A DNA stretch of 64,000 nucleotides, taken from positions 2,356,001 to 2,420,000 of the forward strand of contig NZ_CP136423.1 in NCBI RefSeq assembly GCF_034356035.1, written 5' to 3'. Each line of letters starts with the position of its first letter. Positions within the stretch are counted from its first letter, which is position 1. Positions 1-57,072 of the stretch are shown here, piece by piece. The notes beneath the pieces were generated by a model. That model saw only the letters and a program-made list of their open reading frames with translations, had not been told where the DNA came from and searched no databases. The DNA is from Blautia hydrogenotrophica DSM 10507. Lineage in GTDB: Bacteria > Bacillota > Clostridia > Lachnospirales > Lachnospiraceae. Position numbers and translations under genes: made by a program.

Positions 1-233
1 TATATATTATTAATTATAAAAGAACACTGATTAATAATTGCTGCACCTATATCAAAAGAGTTCTCCGATGATACTGCATCTTTGATAGCAAGAGAATTTC
101 CCCAGAGCTCCTTATTTGTTAATTTTATTTCCGTTTTGTCTTTTAGCGTAATATCAACATATTCCAAATAGTTCCGATTATCTTTATTTAATTCTTTTTT
201 GAAATCACTTGATAAATTAAGTATGATATTCAC
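1..233 (-). CDS. Phage minor structural (tail/baseplate) protein, N-terminal part
   Basis: An open frame on the minus strand runs off the left edge. It reads (V)NIILNLSSDFKKELNK and later contains LTNKELWGNSLAIKDAVSS and NSFDIGAAIINQ, a pattern I associate with Clostridia phage minor structural proteins that follow the distal tail gene. The likely start is GTG at 233, whose bases overlap the TGA of the upstream gene (230-232), a common translational coupling. An ATC or ATA a few codons on would be better spaced from the GAGAGG box, so the exact start is uncertain. Only about 75 residues are visible. Confidence 0.6.
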   Translation of the reverse strand, partial: MNIILNLSSDFKKELNKDNRNYLEYVDITLKDKTEIKLTNKELWGNSLAIKDAVSSENSFDIGAAIINQCSFIINNI

Positions 234-2804: not shown

Positions 2805-3590
2805 TCAAATATCAAGAGTCATCTGGGAATTGCAATTTCTAATCCGCTCCTCCAGGAATACTGGCGGCTGATATTCTCTTGCAATCCGAAGAGCAATGTC
2901 CATCTGGCATCTTTTAATGTTTTTGTAAGAATTAACACCGAAATTATATTTCAGATTTCGATATGCGTCACTAAATGCCGTCTGGCTGATACTTTTGTTA
3001 TGATAAGCATTACTGTCCTTTCCACCGAGAACTTCTACCACTCTTTTCTTAACAGTGTGGGACAGTTCATCTGCATTCACTGGCAGGAGTGGTAAGTCCT
3101 GCTCAAACTTGTCCATGCGCTCGGCAAGGGTATCTACTTTCTGATACAGTTCTGTAGTACCCTGTGCGATAAGTTGAATCTGCTGTTGCAGAGTGGCAGG
3201 GTTTTCGGATTGTTTTTTCTCAATAAAGGCATTAGCGAGAATATCCTTTGCTTTTAGTTGGTAGTTGAGAAGTTTCTTGGCGAGTTCTGGGTGTTCATCT
3301 TCCATATTATTTGTAATAGAGATTTTTGCAAGCCACAAGGGAACAAAGTCAAGACGCAACGCATATACGGAATTTGAAGGGTCAAATATCCCTGCCGAGA
3401 ATTCTCGGCACCCCTTTGATAATGTCTTATCATCTTGCACTCTCTTCACTTGCCAGTCCCTTTGCTTTTTGTTCATATCCAATCCCCGGCAGAAAGCGTT
3501 AATTCCGACCCAAATATTGCCTTTGCTGTCCTTTGCCGCCAATATAGAATCTCCTAGAACATTGACATTTTTAATAATTAAATCATTCAT
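2805..3590 (-). CDS. Phage antirepressor (P22_AR_N plus ORF6C type)
   Basis: A 261-residue protein. The N-terminal part (about 1-110) follows the P22 antirepressor N-terminal pattern (GINAFCRGLDM, LDFVPLWLAKI). The C-terminal part (about 165-255) carries the ORF6C pattern, with HTVKKRVVEVLGGKDSNAY and a later RNLKYNFGVNSYKNI. Such proteins bind and inactivate phage repressors or control host-phage switching. It is one of four intact antirepressor-type genes in the window. Confidence 0.8.
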   Translation of the reverse strand: MNDLIIKNVNVLGDSILAAKDSKGNIWVGINAFCRGLDMNKKQRDWQVKRVQDDKTLSKGCREFSAGIFDPSNSVYALRLDFVPLWLAKISITNNMEDEHPELAKKLLNYQLKAKDILANAFIEKKQSENPATLQQQIQLIAQGTTELYQKVDTLAERMDKFEQDLPLLPVNADELSHTVKKRVVEVLGGKDSNAYHNKSISQTAFSDAYRNLKYNFGVNSYKNIKRCQMDIALRIAREYQPPVFLEERIRNCNSQMTLDI

Positions 3591-4472: not shown

Positions 4473-5306
4473 CTATGCAACCTCCACACAGTATGCTATC
4501 ATCATTTCCTTAATCACACCTATGTATATTTCTTTTAACCGTTTATCTGCCATGATTACAGTCAATTTGTTGATAGCATTAATCTGATTTTTTGTATATC
4601 CCTTTTCCTCTGCCCTTGCTATAGCGTTTCTGACCTTTTGGTCTAATCTACATCCGGCTTTTAATGTCAGACGGTCATAACTCTCATTTCTAGCCGCTGA
4701 ATATCTATTTCCAAAAGAGTATGAAAAATTTGAGCTTTCAGCAATCTTATTAATGCACTTGTTTATCCAATGAGTAGTGTCTTCTTCTGAATCAGAATTT
4801 GAGAAGGTGTCCTTTACATTTTGTAATACCTCTGTTTGCTTATTTGTCTTGTCCTCTAGTTTCTGAAGCTGTTCTGCCTGACGTTTCTGCTCTAACTCAG
4901 TCTTGGCTATGGACTCCGACATTGCAAGCATTAACTGTGTCTGTGGCGAAAGCTGGGTACGATCAATAATCTGCCGTTTGTATCGGTTTTCAATCTCAAT
5001 AAAATGTTTTCTAACCTTTTTACCAATTTCGTTTCTTTCCAGCATAGCTATTTCTTTTGCAATATCTAATTTCAAATAGTATTCAATAGATGTTGCGTTA
5101 TTGGCTTCCATTTTTTTGTGGAAGCGGGAAAAGTCCTTATCTGCAACAGCATCACTCTCAAAAATTCTTTTCTTTATCCATGTGGAAAAATCTTGTTTAC
5201 TTTCCAAAACACCATGCAACTCTCGACCGTCTACAATTTTCTCTCCCTTATCGGTCTCATATACTGGAACAATCTCATTGTCTACCATTGTCATATTATA
5301 TTCCAT
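4473..5306 (-). CDS. AntA-type phage antirepressor
   Basis: A 277-residue protein. Residues about 15-105 match the AntA/AntB domain (VDGRELHGVLESKQDFSTWI, then EYYLKLDIAKEIAMLERNE). A central coiled-coil segment (about 125-165) is followed by an ORF6C-like C-terminal half (YDRLTLKAGCRLDQKV). Antirepressors of this type interfere with a lysogenic repressor. It is transcribed away from the RHH genes as part of a regulatory cluster. Confidence 0.8.
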   Translation of the reverse strand: MEYNMTMVDNEIVPVYETDKGEKIVDGRELHGVLESKQDFSTWIKKRIFESDAVADKDFSRFHKKMEANNATSIEYYLKLDIAKEIAMLERNEIGKKVRKHFIEIENRYKRQIIDRTQLSPQTQLMLAMSESIAKTELEQKRQAEQLQKLEDKTNKQTEVLQNVKDTFSNSDSEEDTTHWINKCINKIAESSNFSYSFGNRYSAARNESYDRLTLKAGCRLDQKVRNAIARAEEKGYTKNQINAINKLTVIMADKRLKEIYIGVIKEMMIAYCVEVA

Positions 5307-5419: not shown

Positions 5420-5893
5420 CTATTTTCTTATTTTTACGTACTCTCTATAATCCACACGATTATCCAGATAGGCTTTTACATCCTCTGATTCCCTATTGAT
5501 GTAAACATAAAAATTTTTTAAATACTCTTCCAATTCATCAGAAATATCTGAGTCAAACTCCTTCGTATAATCATCTATATCTTCATCGCCATGTACTACT
5601 GAATGAACAGAAACCGCCCCGTTAGTATCAATGTACTTCATCTCAACAAATAAACCGCCCATATCAAATGGGTCAAACTCTTCATATCCACTATCTAATT
5701 GACTCATAAAGTGTTCTAATACAGCCACTTGTAAAAAATAATCTTTATTATCCTGCAACAATTCCGTAATTGCTACATTTACAAGGTCGTTTTGGCTTCG
5801 GTCCGTAAGTTCTGCCAAGATTCCCAAATCTCTTTCTACTTTTTCGTCAATTCTAAAAGACTTTTGAACTACATATTTCTTTCTTACTTTCAT
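5420..5893 (-). CDS. RHH N-terminal regulator with acidic C-terminus
   Basis: A 157-residue protein. The first 50 residues (KSFRIDEKVERDLGILAELT) fit a ribbon-helix-helix domain and the rest is strongly acidic. Start at ATG 5893 (MKVRKKYVV) behind GGAGG; the longer frame to 5929 lacks a ribosome site. Possibly a repressor or antitoxin-like protein; partner unknown. Confidence 0.6.
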   Translation of the reverse strand: MKVRKKYVVQKSFRIDEKVERDLGILAELTDRSQNDLVNVAITELLQDNKDYFLQVAVLEHFMSQLDSGYEEFDPFDMGGLFVEMKYIDTNGAVSVHSVVHGDEDIDDYTKEFDSDISDELEEYLKNFYVYINRESEDVKAYLDNRVDYREYVKIRK

Positions 5894-6020
5894 TTTGCCT
5901 CCATAAAATAAGATTATTTTTAGTTGCATTTATATTTTATCACACTCACTATCGATGTCAATAAGTATTCAAAAAAAAGTGAGGACTTTTAATCCCCACT
6001 TCGATATAGTTGATTTTATT

Positions 6021-6170
6021 TCATGCTTTAAAAATCTTTCCGCATTTTCTGCATTGATATTTCGTAGAAAACAGCCCATGTCCAATAATTTGAACATCTG
6101 CACTTCTGCATAGCAAAGATGGACACTTTATTTTTCCTGATATTTTATCAATCGTTCTCCTTTTTTTCAT
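6021..6170 (-). CDS. Small zinc-ribbon protein
   Basis: A 49-residue ORF, MKKRRTIDKISGKIKCPSLL then CRSADVQIIGHG and YQCRKCGKIFKA. Two cysteine pairs suggest a treble-clef or zinc-ribbon fold. It lies 23 nt after the membrane protein gene at 6194-7633 on the same strand. Confidence 0.55.
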   Translation of the reverse strand: MKKRRTIDKISGKIKCPSLLCRSADVQIIGHGLFSTKYQCRKCGKIFKA

Positions 6171-22241: not shown

Positions 22242-22925
22242 TCAAATGCTCCGAATCAGTTCTTTTACATCCTCATACATATCTTTATAGGGAATGTCTG
22301 TTTTCAATAAATTTTCCAGTCGCATATCAATCAGCGTTTCCAAAGACTTCAACCGCAAAAGTGTTTTCTGGTCTAAATCATCTCTTCTCCCGGCTTCGAT
22401 TCCCAAACAGTTCTGAACCAGCTTCGTGAAATTCTGGTAGTACATATCTGCATGGGTGCTGCCCTGCGATTTTGCGTACTCCACATATTTCTTGATTGTG
22501 TCCGTTTCCATCCGGCGTACTTTCTTTGTCTCTTCTCTGGTCTTTAACCGCTCTTCTCCTTTTCCGTCCAGAACATAGAATCCATTTACACGGATTTGCT
22601 TTAATACCTTTGTTACCCATTTTGTAAACAGCTTGGCTTCTGGTTTGTTGCTTCTGAACGCCATATTATAAACAGCTTCTTCAGATACAAATGTTTCTCC
22701 GTAATTGTTCAATGGTGAATTAAAATTCCGGGTGTAGAAAACTCCGACACCCGAAATCATTTCATTAGTAAATTTCTTCTTTTCTGAACGATCAATATTT
22801 CTTAGTGTATCACGAATATTTGCGATCCCTAATTCTTCTCCAACATCAATCGCACTAAACCATATTTCGCTCCTGTTTTTACTACAAATTATTCTTACAT
22901 TACGTTCTTCAAAAATACTTACCAT
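22242..22925 (-). CDS. Bro-N domain antirepressor
   Basis: A 227-residue protein with an N-terminal Bro domain (EIWFSAIDVGEELGIANIRD, then NFNSPLNNYGETFVSEEAVY and LFTKWVTKVLKQIR). The C-terminal half is helical and unassigned. Bro-N proteins bind DNA and often act as antirepressors. It ends 11 nt before the metalloprotease gene. Confidence 0.85.
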   Translation of the reverse strand: MVSIFEERNVRIICSKNRSEIWFSAIDVGEELGIANIRDTLRNIDRSEKKKFTNEMISGVGVFYTRNFNSPLNNYGETFVSEEAVYNMAFRSNKPEAKLFTKWVTKVLKQIRVNGFYVLDGKGEERLKTREETKKVRRMETDTIKKYVEYAKSQGSTHADMYYQNFTKLVQNCLGIEAGRRDDLDQKTLLRLKSLETLIDMRLENLLKTDIPYKDMYEDVKELIRSI

Positions 22926-25961: not shown

Positions 25962-26467
25962 TTCTGATTACCTCCCCTCTGCACTTTAGGAGATTCTATC
26001 GGTGTAATCATCTGTTTAATCTCAGATAGTTCTCCGCCAATTCCCTGTAATATCTCTGCTTTAACTTGTCCAAGCATAGAATTAAGCATCTGAATATCAA
26101 CATACGATTGATCTTCCTTTTGCTTTTCATCTTCCGGCTGAACTGCCTTATATGTAATAATCTGACTTGTTCCATCTGCCATAAGCCTTTTTACATATAC
26201 TTCTGACAAATCGGATTTTGGATAAAAGGTAGGCTGGCCGCTCATGTCAACATTCTTCGCCTTTACCACGTCCAGGCCATCCACAATTTCTCCATTCAGA
26301 CCAGGAGTTTGAGCCTGCTGAACAGGTTGGTTATATAACTGTTGCTGATTATACTGTGTCTGCATCTGAGCCAATCTGTCATATTGCGGTTGTAAAGGAT
26401 TATACTGTTGATATCCTCCATACTGTGGCTGATATCCGAAGTTTTGATATGTCGGAAATGGTTGCAT
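25958..26467 (-). CDS. Gln/Tyr-rich hypothetical protein
   Basis: A 169-residue protein whose first 60 residues are glutamine-, tyrosine- and proline-rich (YQPQYGGYQQYNPLQPQYDR). The second half contains SEVYVKRLMADGTSQIITYK and a helical C-terminus. No family recognised; it is coupled to 25710-25961. Confidence 0.5.
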   Translation of the reverse strand: MQPFPTYQNFGYQPQYGGYQQYNPLQPQYDRLAQMQTQYNQQQLYNQPVQQAQTPGLNGEIVDGLDVVKAKNVDMSGQPTFYPKSDLSEVYVKRLMADGTSQIITYKAVQPEDEKQKEDQSYVDIQMLNSMLGQVKAEILQGIGGELSEIKQMITPIESPKVQRGGNQK

Positions 26468-26561
26468 AACGTTTTCCTCCCCTGTCTTTATGATTTAATT
26501 TTAAATGACGGGACCGTTATTCACCATTCCATAAAACTGTCACATTTCTATCACCAATATG

Positions 26562-26813
26562 TCATTTCCAATTTTCTGAAATTCCTCTATAATATTTAGG
26601 TGCTGTTTTGATGATCTTTGTTTTCATCGTTCGATTTATTCTGTTAATAGTGCTAACGCTACAATTCATTTTTTCTGCTACTTCTTCCAATGGAATTTTA
26701 CTATTTCTATACAAAAAGAGGGAGCGCTCCCTTTCATCAAAGTTTGCCTCCCTCAAATAAAAATCAATTTCTTCTTTTATAAATTCCTTATAAAAATTTC
26801 TTTTTAAATCCAT
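26562..26813 (-). CDS. Sigma-70 region-4-like helix-turn-helix protein
   Basis: An 83-residue protein with ERERSLFLYRNSKIPLEEVA followed by EKMNCSVSTINRINRTMKTK, a helix-turn-helix resembling sigma region 4. It may regulate late genes; target unknown. Confidence 0.55.
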   Translation of the reverse strand: MDLKRNFYKEFIKEEIDFYLREANFDERERSLFLYRNSKIPLEEVAEKMNCSVSTINRINRTMKTKIIKTAPKYYRGISENWK

Positions 26814-34319: not shown

Positions 34320-34506
34320 TGGCTGCTACTCAAAATATGAACAAAGATATCCATATCGAGATATTGAAAGTTCTTGCGAACATTTCTTACTGCTTCTCTG
34401 TATATGCTTTCGCCCTGAGTAAATACAGATACTACTCACAAGTTCTTGTACACTCCACAGTCGTCAATTCCCGACTAGCCATCGGTACATACCTGCAAAT
34501 GCTTGT
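34320..34506 (-). ncRNA. Probable omega RNA/right end of the TnpB element
   Basis: The 3' flank of tnpB on the minus strand runs from the stop codon through GTACCGATGGCTAGTCGGGA and ends near GAACTTTCAATATC. TnpB nucleases use an RNA made from this position as guide scaffold, and the following phage DNA supplies the guide. Exact end not defined. Confidence 0.5.
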
Positions 34507-35706
34507 TTATGCTACTTTGTAGGATGTGGCATCTCTTAAATTAAGACTTGCATTATAATCTCTATCTGCATGATATCCACATTCGCACACATATTCTCTG
34601 TCAGAAAGTTTTAAGTCTTTCCTGATACAACCACATTCATGGCAAAGTTTACTGGATGGATACCATCTGTCTACAATTCTCAATTCAATTCCATATTCTT
34701 TGCATTTTGCTTCCAATTTCACTCTAAATTCATAAAATTTTTGTGATGCAACAGCCTTCGAAAGATGCCTGTTCTTCATCATACCTGATACATTCAAATC
34801 TTCAACAGCGATATAAGATGGTTTGGTTTTCACAATCTCAGCTATTGTTTTATTGATGTAGTCAGTGCGGATATTGTCTATCCTGCAATAAAGCCTTTTC
34901 ACCTTTAATATTTGTTTTTGAATATTTTCTCTGGAAGACTCTCCTTTCTTATTATTCTTCTTTAAACTTTCGTATTTCCTAGAAAGACACCGTTGTTCTC
35001 GTTTTAGTTGTTTTTCTAATTTTTTTACCTTATTTGTTTTATTGATGTTTTTCTTTACAAGCCCATTGCTTATAACCGCAAAATTTTTAACACCAAGGTC
35101 AATTCCAAATCCAAAATCTTGTAATTGTAGTCTTTCTCTTTCTGGTTGCTCAACCAAGACTGATACATAATATCGTCCAGCTCTACAAGAAACAGTACCA
35201 CTCTTGATAATGTAAGTATTTGAATCCCAAGGAATATATCCCTTTTCTTTTAATCTAACCCATCCGAGTGTCGATATTTTGATTCGGTGTCTTTCGCATG
35301 TTATTATTGTCTGAGAATTTGTTTTCACAAAATACATTTTTACATCCGATTTTCCTTTCTTCTTGAATTTAGGAAAACCGGACTGTCCTTTGAAGAATCT
35401 CTTAAAAGATCTTTCGGAATTCATAATGCTTTGTTTTACCGATTTTGTGCTAACCTCTTTTATCCATACATACTCTGGATTCTCTTTTAAATAAACATTA
35501 TTTAGCCATTTTGAGAACTCCATTCCAGATACAAATTTCTTCTCTTTTTCATAAACTTCTTTGTTGCGGGCAAGATAAAAGTTGTATACAAAACGGCAAG
35601 TGCCAATTGTTTTATTGATTTTATGTATTTGTTCCATAGTTGGATTGATTTCCGTCTTGTAACTCTTTAGCATCCTTTCTTGGTCTCCCTTATCTTCTTC
35701 ATTCAT
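34507..35706 (-). CDS. tnpB: TnpB RNA-guided nuclease (IS200/IS605/IS607 family)
   Basis: A 399-residue TnpB. All RuvC residues are present: GIDLGVKNFAV (D), IAVEDLNVSGMM (E), DRDYNASLNL (D), with a CHECG...CECG zinc finger between. No transposase (TnpA) gene is adjacent, so it is not self-mobile on its own. A divergent RHH gene shares its promoter region (35733-35799). ATG 35673 (MLKSYKTEINPT) is an alternative start and matches the usual TnpB beginning. Confidence 0.9.
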   Translation of the reverse strand: MNEEDKGDQERMLKSYKTEINPTMEQIHKINKTIGTCRFVYNFYLARNKEVYEKEKKFVSGMEFSKWLNNVYLKENPEYVWIKEVSTKSVKQSIMNSERSFKRFFKGQSGFPKFKKKGKSDVKMYFVKTNSQTIITCERHRIKISTLGWVRLKEKGYIPWDSNTYIIKSGTVSCRAGRYYVSVLVEQPERERLQLQDFGFGIDLGVKNFAVISNGLVKKNINKTNKVKKLEKQLKREQRCLSRKYESLKKNNKKGESSRENIQKQILKVKRLYCRIDNIRTDYINKTIAEIVKTKPSYIAVEDLNVSGMMKNRHLSKAVASQKFYEFRVKLEAKCKEYGIELRIVDRWYPSSKLCHECGCIRKDLKLSDREYVCECGYHADRDYNASLNLRDATSYKVA

Positions 35707-42571: not shown

Positions 42572-44026
42572 TCAAATCTGAATCGCCTGATAGCGGTCAC
42601 TGTTCAGGACGGAATACATCATTTCAACCGGTGTCTTATCCACGCAACCGATCAGGTTTTTAAATGTGCTTACGGACTGTCCAGAAACAAGCTGCACACC
42701 CTTTCGGTTCTTATCTGCCAGAAATACATCATGCCTGCTATTAACATTCCAGAAAACTACATTCGGGATTTTATACCCATGTTCCTTATATACTCTGGAA
42801 ACATAATCGTAGAAATTCTCTCTATGTTTCTGGTTTGTGCAGCAATCAATCTCCATATCTGAAATGATAATGAGAGATTTCGGCATTTCTTCCTGTGAAC
42901 AATGATTTTCAATCGCCACATCCAGAATCTTCATCAGGGCAGCTTCAAGGTCTGTATTCATCTGCCAACTTGCTCTTGAAATGAAGTTGATTTTTTGAGT
43001 TATGGTATTTCCTTTTATCTCCACGAACTTCGGGCGACCAGAGAATGTCATAAACAGATTATGGTATGCACCTTTGTTTCGCTCTGCGAAGTACATTGCC
43101 AGTCCAATAGAGGTTGCCATCGGTCTGCCATACATGGAGCCTGACACATCCGCCATAACCACTGCGTTTACATCTCCATCAACGTAGTTTGGCAGATTAT
43201 CCCATTGAGCCTCCAGAACCTTGCTATTCTCACTGTGATACAAAATTTTCTCAACAATGTCATACGGATAAAGAGTGGCTGCATTGATTTTCTGTTCGCC
43301 AGAGGAAACTTTGTTTATATATTCTTCAAAACGTTCCTGATCGTGACGAGCAAATGCCTTTCGGTAATTCATCATTGCCCTGGATGGAACCGCCGGATAA
43401 TTAATGGTATCCCACTGGCGGGCCGACATGCGCTGCTCCACAACATCAATATGCTTTCTCAGGCGATTACAAAGACGTTTATAGTCATATACGGACATTC
43501 CTAACTTCTTTGCCGTATAAATTCCCAGTTTCCGAGTGTTCGGGCTAGAAGCATCAGCCTTTTTGAGCCATTTAGCGAGAAGGGAAGACGACTCTTCATT
43601 CTTCATCAATACTTTATCTTTTAAAAGTTGATACTTTACATCATCCCACATATTATCCTCTAATTTCGTTCCGACGAGAGAATAAACGTCGTCCCAGCGT
43701 CCGTATTCTGGTATTTTATCTATGTTCTTTCTTAATTCTTCTGTATGCTTATTTGCTATGTATGTCAAAAGAACACGGAACACACGGCGCTCGCCTAAAC
43801 CTCCATGAATGTCTCTGGCATAGAACAGGCAACGCATAGCGCCTAACGAGTCTTCCTGAAATGCCAGCTCAAATTTCTTGACAATCTCATCCTCTGATCT
43901 GGTACGCATGGCACCGATAGTCGCAAACATATCCAGCAAAGCAGAATCCGTAGTATTCTTTGCGTCTGCTCCGTTCTCGGTCTTTGTCCACTTGCTTTCT
44001 TCTCTCATTACATCTGAAAAATTCAT
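42572..44026 (-). CDS. Ro60-like protein (TROVE/DUF2828 plus vWA)
   Basis: A 484-residue protein. Residues about 20-265 form a helical-repeat region with the DUF2828/TROVE pattern (RCLFYARDIHGGLGERRVFR, SSLLAKWLKKADASS, YKRLCNRLRKHID). Residues about 295-470 are a von Willebrand A domain with an intact MIDAS: DVSGS, the threonine in NTDLEAAL and the aspartate in IISDMEID. This is the architecture of Ro60/Rsr, a ring protein that binds Y RNAs and misfolded RNA. Two Y-RNA-like elements lie just upstream on the same strand. The TROVE assignment comes from memory of DUF2828 similarity and needs a profile search. Confidence 0.75.
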   Translation of the reverse strand: MNFSDVMREESKWTKTENGADAKNTTDSALLDMFATIGAMRTRSEDEIVKKFELAFQEDSLGAMRCLFYARDIHGGLGERRVFRVLLTYIANKHTEELRKNIDKIPEYGRWDDVYSLVGTKLEDNMWDDVKYQLLKDKVLMKNEESSSLLAKWLKKADASSPNTRKLGIYTAKKLGMSVYDYKRLCNRLRKHIDVVEQRMSARQWDTINYPAVPSRAMMNYRKAFARHDQERFEEYINKVSSGEQKINAATLYPYDIVEKILYHSENSKVLEAQWDNLPNYVDGDVNAVVMADVSGSMYGRPMATSIGLAMYFAERNKGAYHNLFMTFSGRPKFVEIKGNTITQKINFISRASWQMNTDLEAALMKILDVAIENHCSQEEMPKSLIIISDMEIDCCTNQKHRENFYDYVSRVYKEHGYKIPNVVFWNVNSRHDVFLADKNRKGVQLVSGQSVSTFKNLIGCVDKTPVEMMYSVLNSDRYQAIQI

Positions 44027-44043
44027 AAAAATCTCCTTTCATT

Positions 44044-44140
44044 ACGCCAATTTCCCTTGACCACTAGGGCATATCCTCCACGGATACGATTGGAGTTGAA
44101 CCAATATGCTTTTTTAAGCGAATAAATTGCTGTTTGGCGT
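44044..44140 (-). ncRNA. YrlA-like Y RNA, copy 2
   Basis: Minus-strand order: closing strand ACGCCAA (44140-44134), hairpin GCTTAAAAAAGC, T-arm ATTGG-TTCAACT-CCAAT (44105-44089), acceptor-like hairpin CGTATCC-GTGGA-GGATATG (44088-44070), D-arm CCC-TAGTGGTCAA-GGG with GG in the loop (44069-44054), closing strand TTGGCGT (44050-44044). This is a tRNA fold permuted so that the acceptor is closed by a loop and the ends pair where the anticodon stem would be, as in bacterial YrlA. It ends 18 nt before the Ro-like start codon. Confidence 0.8.
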
Positions 44141-44166
44141 TACATAGGTTTTTAGTTGTTTTTACA

Positions 44167-44252
44167 GTACGCATATTTCACGGAATCGAACCGTATTTTC
44201 TTTGTTTTGCATACAAATCATTTGCCATTAAGTCATTGCTGTTGCTGCGTAC
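44167..44252 (-). tRNA. tRNA-Cys-like (GCA), degenerate
   Basis: Outer 7-bp stem GTACGCA/TGCGTAC, anticodon arm TTTGT-ATGCAAA-ACAAA (GCA) and T-arm TACGG-TTCGATT-CCGTG. The D region has nine extra nt and five extra nt separate T-arm and acceptor, so it is unlikely to be fully functional. Confidence 0.5.
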
Positions 44253-44266
44253 CTCTGTTTTTTACA

Positions 44267-44370
44267 GTTCTCAAAATATAAATAGATTGCCCTACCAGCT
44301 GGGCGACATTCCATTTCAGGAATGATTGGACTTGAACCAATGACACATCTTCATTCTGCTGTATGAGAAC
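44267..44370 (-). ncRNA. YrlA-like Y RNA, copy 1
   Basis: Minus-strand order: closing strand GTTCTCA (44370-44364), AGAT pairing with ATCT near the core, T-arm ATTGG-TTCAAGT-CCAAT (44341-44325), acceptor-like hairpin CATTCC-TGAAAT-GGAATG (44324-44307), D-arm GCCC-AGCTGGTA-GGGC (44304-44289), closing strand TGAGAAC (44273-44267). Same permuted layout as copy 2 although the stem sequences differ, so the structure, not the sequence, is conserved. Confidence 0.8.
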
Positions 44371-44375
44371 CAAAA

Positions 44376-44448
44376 CGGGAACAGAAGGACTTGAACCTTC
44401 GACAACATGATTAACAGTCATGTGCTCTCCTGGCTGAGCTATATTCCC
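44376..44448 (-). tRNA. tRNA-Asn (GTT)
   Basis: Acceptor GGGAATA/TGTTCCC, D-arm GCTC-AGCCAGGA-GAGC, anticodon arm CATGA-CTGTTAA-TCATG (GTT), T-arm GAAGG-TTCAAGT-CCTTC. It lies 5 nt upstream of Y RNA copy 1, probably one transcript. Confidence 0.95.
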
Positions 44449-44617
44449 AAACATTTCCTGTTTTTTCGCTTTTATAATCCCAAATTATACGCTTAATAGA
44501 TTGCAGTTCAGGAAACATAATACATTACGCCATAGGTTTTATGATTAGGGGTCATATCCAAAATTGCGGTTGACGTAACTCGTTTTTTGTTTTTGGAATT
44601 TTTTCGGATTGCCCGAT

Positions 44618-46359: not shown

Positions 46360-46989
46360 TTATAAATCTTCCGGTAGTTCTGGCTTTTCAACTTGTCCTA
46401 TCTTATGCCGTGCCGCTATGTCTGCTGCGATCTGCTCCGGCTGCTGGCCATTTACGATCTCTACACGTTGCGGTGTCTCTGTATAACCGTAATTAGCTTT
46501 TAGGGCAAATATGCACCCCACAGAGTTCCGTTCCGTGGCTCCGTCGACCAAACTAGACTCACATTCTGCCAGCCATTTTTTGACCGTTTGAGAGTGTGCA
46601 GAGCTTGCCCCGTCCTCTCCGGCCCTGAATTCCCCGCGCCTCCAAGTATCAATAGTCCTATTATCAATGCCTATCAAAAGACTAAAATTTAATATAGTCG
46701 GACGTTTATTATACTTATAACAAAGCTCTGTATATACCTCCCAGATATTATTTAATAACTCTATATCTCCCGTATCTAAGTTAGTATTAGCATTATACTT
46801 TACTTTATCTTTTTTACCAGGCTTAAATAAATGCTTATAGATATACTTAATCATGCCAGTAAATAAACTAGGATTATTATTTATGCTATCCTCCTTTTCT
46901 GGTAACTGACTTATATATTCGTCAGCATAATACTTTATATCATGCTCATATACTTCTATTCCGTTTTCCGCCTTTATTGCATTACTCAT
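46360..46989 (-). CDS. Helix-turn-helix phage protein, terminase small subunit-like
   Basis: A 209-residue protein. Its middle has NFSLLIGIDNRTIDTWRRGE, a helix-turn-helix, and later VGCIFALKANYGYTETPQRV, a segment common in small terminases and phage DNA-binding proteins. It is 12 kb from TerL, so the terminase role is uncertain. Its leader carries an attenuator-like hairpin (47041-47107). Confidence 0.45.
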   Translation of the reverse strand: MSNAIKAENGIEVYEHDIKYYADEYISQLPEKEDSINNNPSLFTGMIKYIYKHLFKPGKKDKVKYNANTNLDTGDIELLNNIWEVYTELCYKYNKRPTILNFSLLIGIDNRTIDTWRRGEFRAGEDGASSAHSQTVKKWLAECESSLVDGATERNSVGCIFALKANYGYTETPQRVEIVNGQQPEQIAADIAARHKIGQVEKPELPEDL

Positions 46990-51361: not shown

Positions 51362-51484
51362 TTATTTTGTCAATATTCTATCCTTAATCATTTGCTCTAA
51401 CTGACGACGTGTTTTTTCGGATCTTTCTTCTTGCTCTTTCCTTCTTCGTTTATATCGCTCATTATTCTCACTACTTGTCCCCAT
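51362..51484 (-). CDS. Small charged protein
   Basis: A 40-residue ORF, MGTSSENNERYKRRRKEQEE, basic then acidic, overlapping the DUF4417 stop by 14 nt. Unknown function. Confidence 0.45.
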   Translation of the reverse strand: MGTSSENNERYKRRRKEQEERSEKTRRQLEQMIKDRILTK

Positions 51485-52145
51485 ATTTATCCTTTCCGAA
51501 TCTTTCATTCATTCTTTGATTTCTTGCTTTAAGATTTATAACTTTTGTTAAATCCCTCAATTCATCTGGCAGCCTCCCCACAACTATAATTCTTGTTGGT
51601 TCTAATTTGCTACACATCTGATAAAAACCGTCACAAAATTCTTCTCTAGCTCTTTTAGACCTTATTCTTCCGTTTGTACTGCAACATACTGTACTATATT
51701 TAGGAATCCCATCTAAAAGCCATTTTCGCCCCTCATACGGGACAATATTTACATTTGGGATAACTTTAATGCCCTGTAAAGTTAAATACCAATCTAAGGC
51801 CATGCTTCGGTACTTATTCCACATCTGCATAACAAGCGGCATCTGTGTATCAATGGAAAAATCAAGACCACAAATTGATTCAAAACATTTAAGATGTTCT
51901 ATATATCTATCTGGTGCTGAGTACAAACGTTCAAATTTTTCATCGTCCACAAAGAAATTCACATTCAATCGTTTATGTCCCTTCAATTTTCTCGATAAGC
52001 TTTCGGAAAAATCTACGGTGTTAGATGGTACGGTTTGTACCATCGGAAGTATTGGATACCCCATTTTCGTCAATTCTGCTCCATAGATCAAAAATTCTTT
52101 CATCACATCATTTACTGTTGAATATCTCGTATATCGTTCAGCCAT
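51471..52145 (-). CDS. DUF4417 phage protein
   Basis: A 224-residue protein, start ATG 52145 behind GGAGGA. It contains VNFFVDDEKFERLYSAPDRY, LKCFESICGLDFSIDTQMPL and MALDWYLTLQGIKVIPNVNI, the pattern of DUF4417 proteins often found at prophage ends. Function unknown. Confidence 0.7.
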   Translation of the reverse strand: MAERYTRYSTVNDVMKEFLIYGAELTKMGYPILPMVQTVPSNTVDFSESLSRKLKGHKRLNVNFFVDDEKFERLYSAPDRYIEHLKCFESICGLDFSIDTQMPLVMQMWNKYRSMALDWYLTLQGIKVIPNVNIVPYEGRKWLLDGIPKYSTVCCSTNGRIRSKRAREEFCDGFYQMCSKLEPTRIIVVGRLPDELRDLTKVINLKARNQRMNERFGKDKYGDK

Positions 52146-52248
52146 AGAAAATCCTCCCATAATGCAAAAAATCACCGCAAAATTCCTTTGCGATGTCATA
52201 TATTCAGGATTTCCTCCTCTTATCTTTAACTTAAATCGAACATATGTC

Positions 52249-55716: not shown

Positions 55717-57072
<1,356 letters not shown>

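Follow-up and report, generated by a model that had tools for sequence, protein, structure and literature searches.

A prophage DUF2828 protein with a predicted Ro60 fold and adjoining small RNAs predicted to carry pieces of tRNA on a shared stem-plus-ACAGCAA element

Results

A DUF2828 gene and four predicted small RNAs in a Blautia prophage

We analyzed a 64,000-nucleotide (nt) stretch of the Blautia hydrogenotrophica DSM 10507 genome (contig NZ_CP136423.1, positions 2,356,001 to 2,420,000; hereafter, the window) in which an undamaged prophage gene encodes a 484-residue protein of the DUF2828/DUF7788 family, with a cluster of four predicted small RNAs directly upstream on the same strand (Table 1). 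When read beside their relatives, the four RNAs follow one plan: a strand of 7 to 9 nt, a spacer of 0 to 3 nt, a motif of the ACAGCAA type, a cargo, and a strand complementary to the first. The motif is exact in Y2 and RNA-C and varied in Y1 and RNA-A. The permuted body carried by Y1 and Y2 consists of a T-arm, a closed acceptor hairpin, and a D-arm; RNA-C carries an anticodon loop, AUGCAAA (anticodon GCA), and a T-arm without an acceptor; and the RNA-A cargo is a hairpin with a 5-bp stem and a 7-nt loop, CCCCUAA, in which C33 stands instead of the usual U33. A finder for T-arm, closed acceptor, D-arm, and closing stem, applied to both strands of the window, returned only two hits, 44266-44371 and 44044-44140 (-), at the places where a first-pass annotation of this DNA had put two RNAs; RNA-A and RNA-C do not have this layout. 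Both of those RNAs thus stand, but the cluster has four members, and RNA-A and RNA-C had been missed. The distance between Y2 and the start codon, earlier given as 18 nt, is 17 nt, and GGCGTAATGAAAGGAG within this gap is kept in the related loci L009, L002, L088, and L089.

Table 1. Features of the window, with positions numbered from its first letter.
Feature	Position	Strand	Description or evidence
DUF2828/DUF7788 (PHROG 850) protein, 484 residues	42572..44026	-	Pfam and PHROG matches, AlphaFold2 model, structure comparisons
Gap from Y2 to start codon	44027..44043	-	17 nt; AAGGAG ribosome-binding site
Y2 (predicted RNA)	44044..44140	-	Stem ACGCCAA/TTGGCGT; ACAGCAA at 44127-44133; permuted tRNA body
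RNA-C (predicted RNA)	44165..44253	-	Stem GTACGCA/TGCGTAC, 3 nt, ACAGCAA at 44236-44242; tRNA-Cys-like body
Y1 (predicted RNA)	44265..44372	-	Stem GTTCTCA/TGAGAAC; ACAGCAG at 44356-44362; permuted tRNA body
tRNA-Asn (GUU)	44376..44448	-	tRNA match; canonical, without module; neighbor of the cluster
RNA-A (predicted RNA)	44523..44579	-	Stem TTACGTCA/TGGCGTAA; ACCGCAA at 44564-44570; anticodon-arm mimic
Terminase small subunit	46360..46989		PHROG match
RAGATH-18 RNA	34387..34461	-	Rfam, 62.2 bits
TnpB/OrfB_IS605-like gene	34507..35706	-	
DUF4417 protein	51471..52199	-	Pfam, 1.3e-35; PHROG 940 nuclease, 1.5e-33
Enolase	55717..57063		Resembles host chromosome

Profile searches matched the protein to Pfam DUF2828 and DUF7788 and, over its full length (residues 1-480), to PHROG 850 (E = 6.9e-154). 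The DUF2828 family has at least 7986 relatives; the closest organism-named ones are from Blautia, and a tblastn search with the protein matched 681 of 50,697 annotated phage records. For an AlphaFold2 model (predicted local distance difference test score 87.9, predicted template-modeling score 0.86), Ro60 chains ranked first in both structure comparisons run. The protein is therefore predicted to adopt the Ro60 fold, i.e., a helical ring plus a vWA domain with a metal ion-dependent adhesion site (MIDAS). The five MIDAS residues (D293, S295, S297, T358, and D390) were identical across 30 aligned sequences, in agreement with the earlier description of an intact site in a gene on the same strand as the RNAs. 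At the sequence level, the TROVE profile (PF05731) had no match among 30 DUF2828-family sequences at E ≤ 10, the Ro60 vWA profile (PF25045) matched one of the 30 (E = 0.12), and a sequence search of solved structures with the 484-residue protein did not find Ro60, its top profile match being a vWA protein (E = 0.0063). TROVE was dropped as a family label by sequence because the protein matches DUF2828/DUF7788 and not PF05731. The first-pass annotation had named profile similarity to TROVE/Ro60 as its own test; no TROVE match was found at the sequence level, whereas the predicted fold is that of Ro60. Its wider proposal, a prophage Ro60-like protein accompanied by YrlA-like, tRNA-mimicking RNAs, is supported by that fold, the finder hits, and a YrlA match.

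The last of these was obtained with the Rfam YrlA model, whose score for Y1 (44267-44370) was 43.3 bits (E = 1.4e-7) and thus short of the required 69 (gathering score); in the same scan RNA-A, RNA-C, and Y2 had no YrlA match (for Y2, none listed at E ≤ 10). Y1 and Y2 have the permuted layout of YrlA, but the designation YrlA type is incomplete, as the shared stem and ACAGCAA element is not in the printed YrlA consensus, where AUGCuuggGgaaCUA stands in the place at which Y1 has AUACAGCAG and more. RNA-C gave a weak tRNA match (44179-44235, 19.7 bits, sub-gathering). On their own, the folding statistics of the four RNAs were modest: z = -2.78 for Y2 (2 of 200 shuffles as good), -1.65 for Y1 (13 of 200), and -1.60 for RNA-A (11 of 200), with a weak fold for RNA-C (z = +0.43; the tRNA-like structure lies 1.6 kcal/mol above the minimum). 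The minimum-energy fold of Y1 deviates near the 5′ end, and its centroid agrees with the drawn fold. Comparison with relatives revealed paired changes in the T-stem of RNA-C and in stems of the other three RNAs. The Y2 D-stem CCCT/AGGG becomes CCTT/AAGG in L002, a compensatory change; Y1 is conserved in both L009 and L002, where it shows paired changes; L009 keeps the anticodon GCA, stem, and T-arm of RNA-C; and in the L002 counterpart of RNA-A the stem is TTACAGC/GCTGTAA, the motif is ACAGCGA, and the loop, CUUUUAA, is of the Lys-UUU type.

The stem-plus-ACAGCAA module recurs near DUF2828 genes

DUF2828 loci were taken from viral contigs and species genomes, and 145 were left after identical ones were removed; one viral-contig set and the species-genome set each comprised the best 80 of a larger number of matches. 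In the last 500 nt upstream of the gene, the gene strand carried 173 copies of ACAGCAA (2.53 per kb) and the opposite strand none, compared with 0.04 to 0.15 per kb beyond 1.5 kb upstream and 0.67 per kb in the first 500 nt downstream. A 3′ partner scoring at least 6 accompanied 78.7% of 244 motifs versus 23.5% of 1072 random positions, and swapping partners among loci lowered pairing from 78.8% to 21.9%. The 245 distinct gene-strand motifs (from 256 detections) comprised 167 in an open form and 89 in a hairpin form, 11 of them counted in both, and two more motifs lay on the opposite strand. When both topologies were counted, 111 of the 145 loci and 46 of 68 protein clusters had a module within 2.5 kb of the gene; the control for open-form modules gave 32 in 1661 strand-kb of 101 loci. 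Y1 and Y2 are thus two members of a larger modular class of RNA defined by the stem plus ACAGCAA.

The module is found without protein information and in isolated phages

Searching with a stem-motif-partner pattern that used no protein information identified 43 viral loci, whereas the same stem/partner pattern with a scrambled motif identified none. Only five of the 43 loci had DUF2828 inside the fetched stretch; in whole records it was present in 22 of 44 (the 43 loci plus four partner-bearing AAGGCACGNACAGCAA loci, merged by contig) and in 14 of the 15 that were at least 60 kb long. TROVE was searched in eight of the 22 records without DUF2828, and none was found. The pattern AAGGCACGNACAGCAA alone gave 118 loci, which we judged to be mostly chance: among 119 matches, five had the exact 3′ partner CGTGCCT and ten had DUF2828 in the fetched stretch, none had both, and GTGCCTTG lay downstream in the four examined of those ten. 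In three short contigs (L172, L229, and L234), which gave no DUF2828 match, module RNAs with a full partner stem precede genes for terminase or other phage structural proteins.

Among isolated phages, modules adjoin the DUF2828 gene or lie within 3 kb of it in Bacillus FADO, Listeria A511 and CKA15, Mycobacterium Miley16, and Campylobacter CP30A, and also in Escherichia tootiki and Cronobacter S13, where they are beside or among tRNA genes. The first scan placed none near the gene of Vibrio V09, which has a strong stem with the variant UCAGCAA in its tRNA cluster. The gene and its sequence elements accordingly recur, beside and in trans to one another, in many phages. YrlA matches at or above the gathering score were absent from the window and from 12 loci of this kind; L001, L002, L012, and L032 gave sub-threshold ones.

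Two other RNA matches were noted. The related phage contig L001 contains a Type II hammerhead ribozyme match at 26-92 (-) (48.1 bits, above gathering). Listeria phage A511 (L327, 2498-3049) contains a ROOL match (87.5 bits, E = 2.5e-16; gathering score 99.1) situated at what is the most transcribed noncoding region in CKA15 (98.6% identical over 700 nt; PMC12282133); ROOL was not listed at E ≤ 1e-4 in a direct scan of the CKA15 locus. The hyper-transcribed region of CKA15 (26236-26727) was considered as the module array and rejected, being located about 0.7 kb upstream of the array (25.3-25.6 kb).

Five-armed tRNAs

A canonical tRNA finder applied to the 145 loci and seven phage stretches returned 530 structures, of which 77 were at least 95 nt long and contained the motif; two of the 77 (185-188 nt) are apparent artefacts. 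In these long tRNAs the module is a hairpin (3′ strand, short loop, 5′ strand, ACAGCAA), which is the open module closed at its other end. A U33 anticodon arm was in the expected place in 39 of 71 distinct module-bearing tRNAs of 95 to 135 nt. The module fit between nucleotides 28 and 29, splitting the anticodon stem after its second pair, in 28 cases (shuffle expectation, 0.66), versus 3 to 11 for the other split points. In an alignment of 26 five-armed tRNAs, chosen by their tRNA helices with no part played by the module hairpin, 95.0% of cells were paired in the proposed structure, and the covariation was 0.834 compared with 0.244 for shuffled and at most 0.246 for slid alignments. Both-sided changes were present at five of six module-hairpin pairs and at both outer anticodon-stem pairs. 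Public records can label such RNAs as tRNA: Cronobacter phage S13 (L330) has two, of 121 nt (5857-5977) and 113 nt (5987-6099), annotated as tRNA-Ser and tRNA-OTHER, and both share the hairpin and a variant UUCAGCA insert.

Cargo of the open-form RNAs

We assembled 228 distinct open-form RNAs: 179 lie upstream of the gene, the RNA-first search contributed 33, and six phages gave 16. A T-arm was detected in 71 (0.1% of shuffles). Canonical anticodon arms were present in 43 (14 of 2280 shuffles), and 20 had the whole permuted tRNA core (0 of 1140 shuffles). Part of the cargo is thus tRNA in identity; the stem of the module covaries, as described above. The anticodons are diverse. Lys-UUU is the commonest, partly via related phages, at 16 of 43 canonical cargo arms versus 26 of 601 tRNAs; after related phages were merged the excess was smaller (7 of 48 versus 6 of 196). 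U36 occurred in 35 of 65 mimics versus 75 of 196 ordinary tRNAs (Fisher p = 0.030, a post hoc choice).

Other features of the window

We assign the DUF2828 locus to a prophage because the window encodes both terminase subunits, portal, major head, and tape-measure proteins. The same prophage encodes a DUF4417 protein and three antirepressor-like proteins (AntA, BRO, and P22_AR/ORF6C; 4473-5306, 22242-22925, and 2805-3590 (-)). The RAGATH-18 RNA lies 45 nt downstream of the TnpB/OrfB_IS605-like gene, whose guide RNA it could constitute or overlap.

Discussion

We favor, with moderate confidence, a reading in which the Ro60-fold DUF2828 protein of this prophage docks on the shared element and presents pieces of tRNA, most likely as decoys. 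The RNAs of the window cluster are probably made, and the fold and the linkage suggest that the protein binds the stem plus ACAGCAA, which its ring would likely hold as a docking site; Rsr proteins grip the basal stem of Y RNAs (PMC8394870). RNAs held in this way would display a tRNA surface (elbow, anticodon arm, or both) and could thereby decoy host enzymes that act on tRNA. Anticodon nucleases of anti-phage defense may be the foremost targets, although this is less certain than the docking. The module occurs in two topologies: in the open one it closes the ends of an RNA that encloses the cargo, and in the other it is a hairpin inserted into a tRNA that is otherwise canonical. Either should keep tRNA recognition surfaces while making a function in translation unlikely; a split anticodon stem would keep the loop and presumably spoil translation. 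We favor decoying because tRNA cutting is common in anti-phage defense and phage tRNAs counteract it (PMC12409363), and because competitive inhibition has already been proposed for YrlA (PMC7790460).

Several results weigh against this interpretation. In 34 of the 145 loci and 22 of the 68 clusters, the strict detector placed no module closer than 2.5 kb to the gene (L002, counted here, is a false negative because its motifs vary), and Salmonella phage SE_PL has no convincing module near the gene. Conversely, a 75.7-kb contig (L208) with at least two modules gave no DUF2828 or TROVE match. As an in-trans control, AAGGCACGNACAGCAA records contained DUF2828 in 6 of 45 cases and in 4 of the 9 that were at least 60 kb long; these 45 came from 80 listed of the 118 loci, minus seven with DUF2828, six with a partner, and 22 that were mostly short. 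These exclusions make the control unclean and bias it toward our reading, and the remainder may include true modules, so we relied on the scrambled-motif control. In 32 of the 71 long tRNAs the U33 anticodon arm was not in the expected place. By the rules used, 121 of the 228 open-form cargoes had neither a T-arm nor an anticodon arm, which leaves much of the RNA class unexplained. The U36 skew expected of nuclease decoys is weak (p = 0.14 for the open-form RNAs alone), and a study in Salmonella observed no YrlA fragments when tRNAs were cut (PMC7790460).

Alternatively, the RNA might use its tRNA-like domain to tether the Ro ring to PNPase or another nuclease and so redirect RNA decay during infection. 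The Rsr-Y RNA-PNPase complex is the characterized bacterial Ro machine, as in Deinococcus (PMC8394870, PMC12282133), and Y1 and Y2 have a YrlA-like body, so we regard this as a serious though minority possibility; in many cases, however, the cargo is an anticodon arm alone or a complete tRNA body that retains its anticodon, and many different tRNA parts would be needless in a tether for one enzyme. We think it unlikely that the ribonucleoprotein is instead a repair platform that holds cut tRNA halves or recruits an RNA ligase and a kinase to reseal them. In Listeria A511 and CKA15, a "tRNA splicing ligase" gene follows the DUF2828 gene at a distance of 1.3 kb (CKA15 has an RNA ligase further on), an RNA ligase gene is immediately upstream in SE_PL, and mycobacteriophage LeBron encodes a Ro-like protein, an RNA ligase, and a kinase (PMC13148394). 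Against this, no ligase or kinase was found among 29 window open reading frames scanned (a subset, with libraries that varied by frame), and the cargo resembles parts of tRNA rather than guides complementary to tRNA halves, as judged without systematic comparison.

The position of the RNAs raises the idea of a cis-regulatory leader, through which the protein would mainly control its own translation, the tRNA-like parts being by-products. In 23 of 89 loci, no more than 40 nt separate the end of the final upstream RNA of open form from the presumed start codon (in one locus the two overlap), much as for Y2 in the window, and the protein may bind its own leader, as the first-pass annotation suggested. 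The many contigs in which modules are far from the gene, as seen in the DUF2828 counts for fetched stretches versus whole records, make a mainly cis-regulatory role quite improbable. We give very little credence to the view that the RNAs are debris left where tRNA genes in a phage array broke and were rearranged, without a common function: many modules do lie inside tRNA arrays, but the shared element, the stem covariation, and the preferred insertion site argue otherwise.

Several known systems come close to this one. Like Rsr with YrlA RNA (RF02553), the window locus combines a protein of predicted Ro60 fold with a nearby RNA that has a closing stem and a permuted tRNA body; unlike YrlA, the window RNAs carry the stem plus ACAGCAA rather than the YrlA sequence, DUF2828-linked cargo also includes anticodon arms, acceptor-less tRNA bodies, and five-armed tRNAs, and there are several RNAs per locus. 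The protein shares its full-length predicted fold with Ro60/TROVE proteins (PF05731; PDB 1yvr, 2i91, 2nvo, and 9l5y, the last being a deposited phage Ro60 structure from Thermus phage phiLo), but with only 8 to 16% identity in structural alignments. It belongs to PHROG 850, annotated in phages as "RNA-binding protein" or "Ro-like RNA binding protein", although no Y RNA was annotated in the nine records examined. The use of phage T5 tRNAs against PARIS is an established tRNA-based counter to a tRNA-cutting defense (PMC12409363); those are working tRNAs, whereas the module RNAs would be protein-bound mimics. Y RNAs have been reported for bacteria and mycobacteriophages (Chen 2014, as cited in PMC12282133). 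TROVE has been noted in a minor fraction of jumbo phages (PMC7824862), and Vibrio phage pir03 has a Ro60-like protein (PMC7765460). The Ro-like protein of LeBron, gp53, is toxic on overexpression (PMC13148394). For Listeria phage CKA15, Y RNAs upstream of the Ro-like gene were suggested by its authors, and the Ro-like protein was detected in purified particles (20 peptides, 57.1% coverage; PMC12282133). A broader proposal, that many tailed phages of unrelated hosts share an unrecognized Ro60-ring ribonucleoprotein, which uses the stem plus ACAGCAA to load a set of tRNA parts and five-armed tRNAs particular to each phage as decoys against tRNA-cutting defense and in some phages travels in the virion together with the genome, is one that we consider doubtful at present. 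In open-licence PubMed Central literature, outside which key subscription papers lie, we saw neither the ACAGCAA module nor the anticodon-arm RNAs, acceptor-less RNAs, or five-armed tRNAs described.

If the favored reading is correct, it would assign DUF2828, a family of unknown function, a partner RNA and a role that can be tested, and would expose a class of RNA that current models miss or call tRNA. It would be unexpected for one exchangeable element to display such varied parts of tRNA, among them a tRNA whose additional arm sits at a favored position. The question of what Y RNAs do in bacteria and phages would become directly testable in Escherichia coli K-12 with phage tootiki, and would be tied to the recent finding that anti-phage defenses often cut tRNA.
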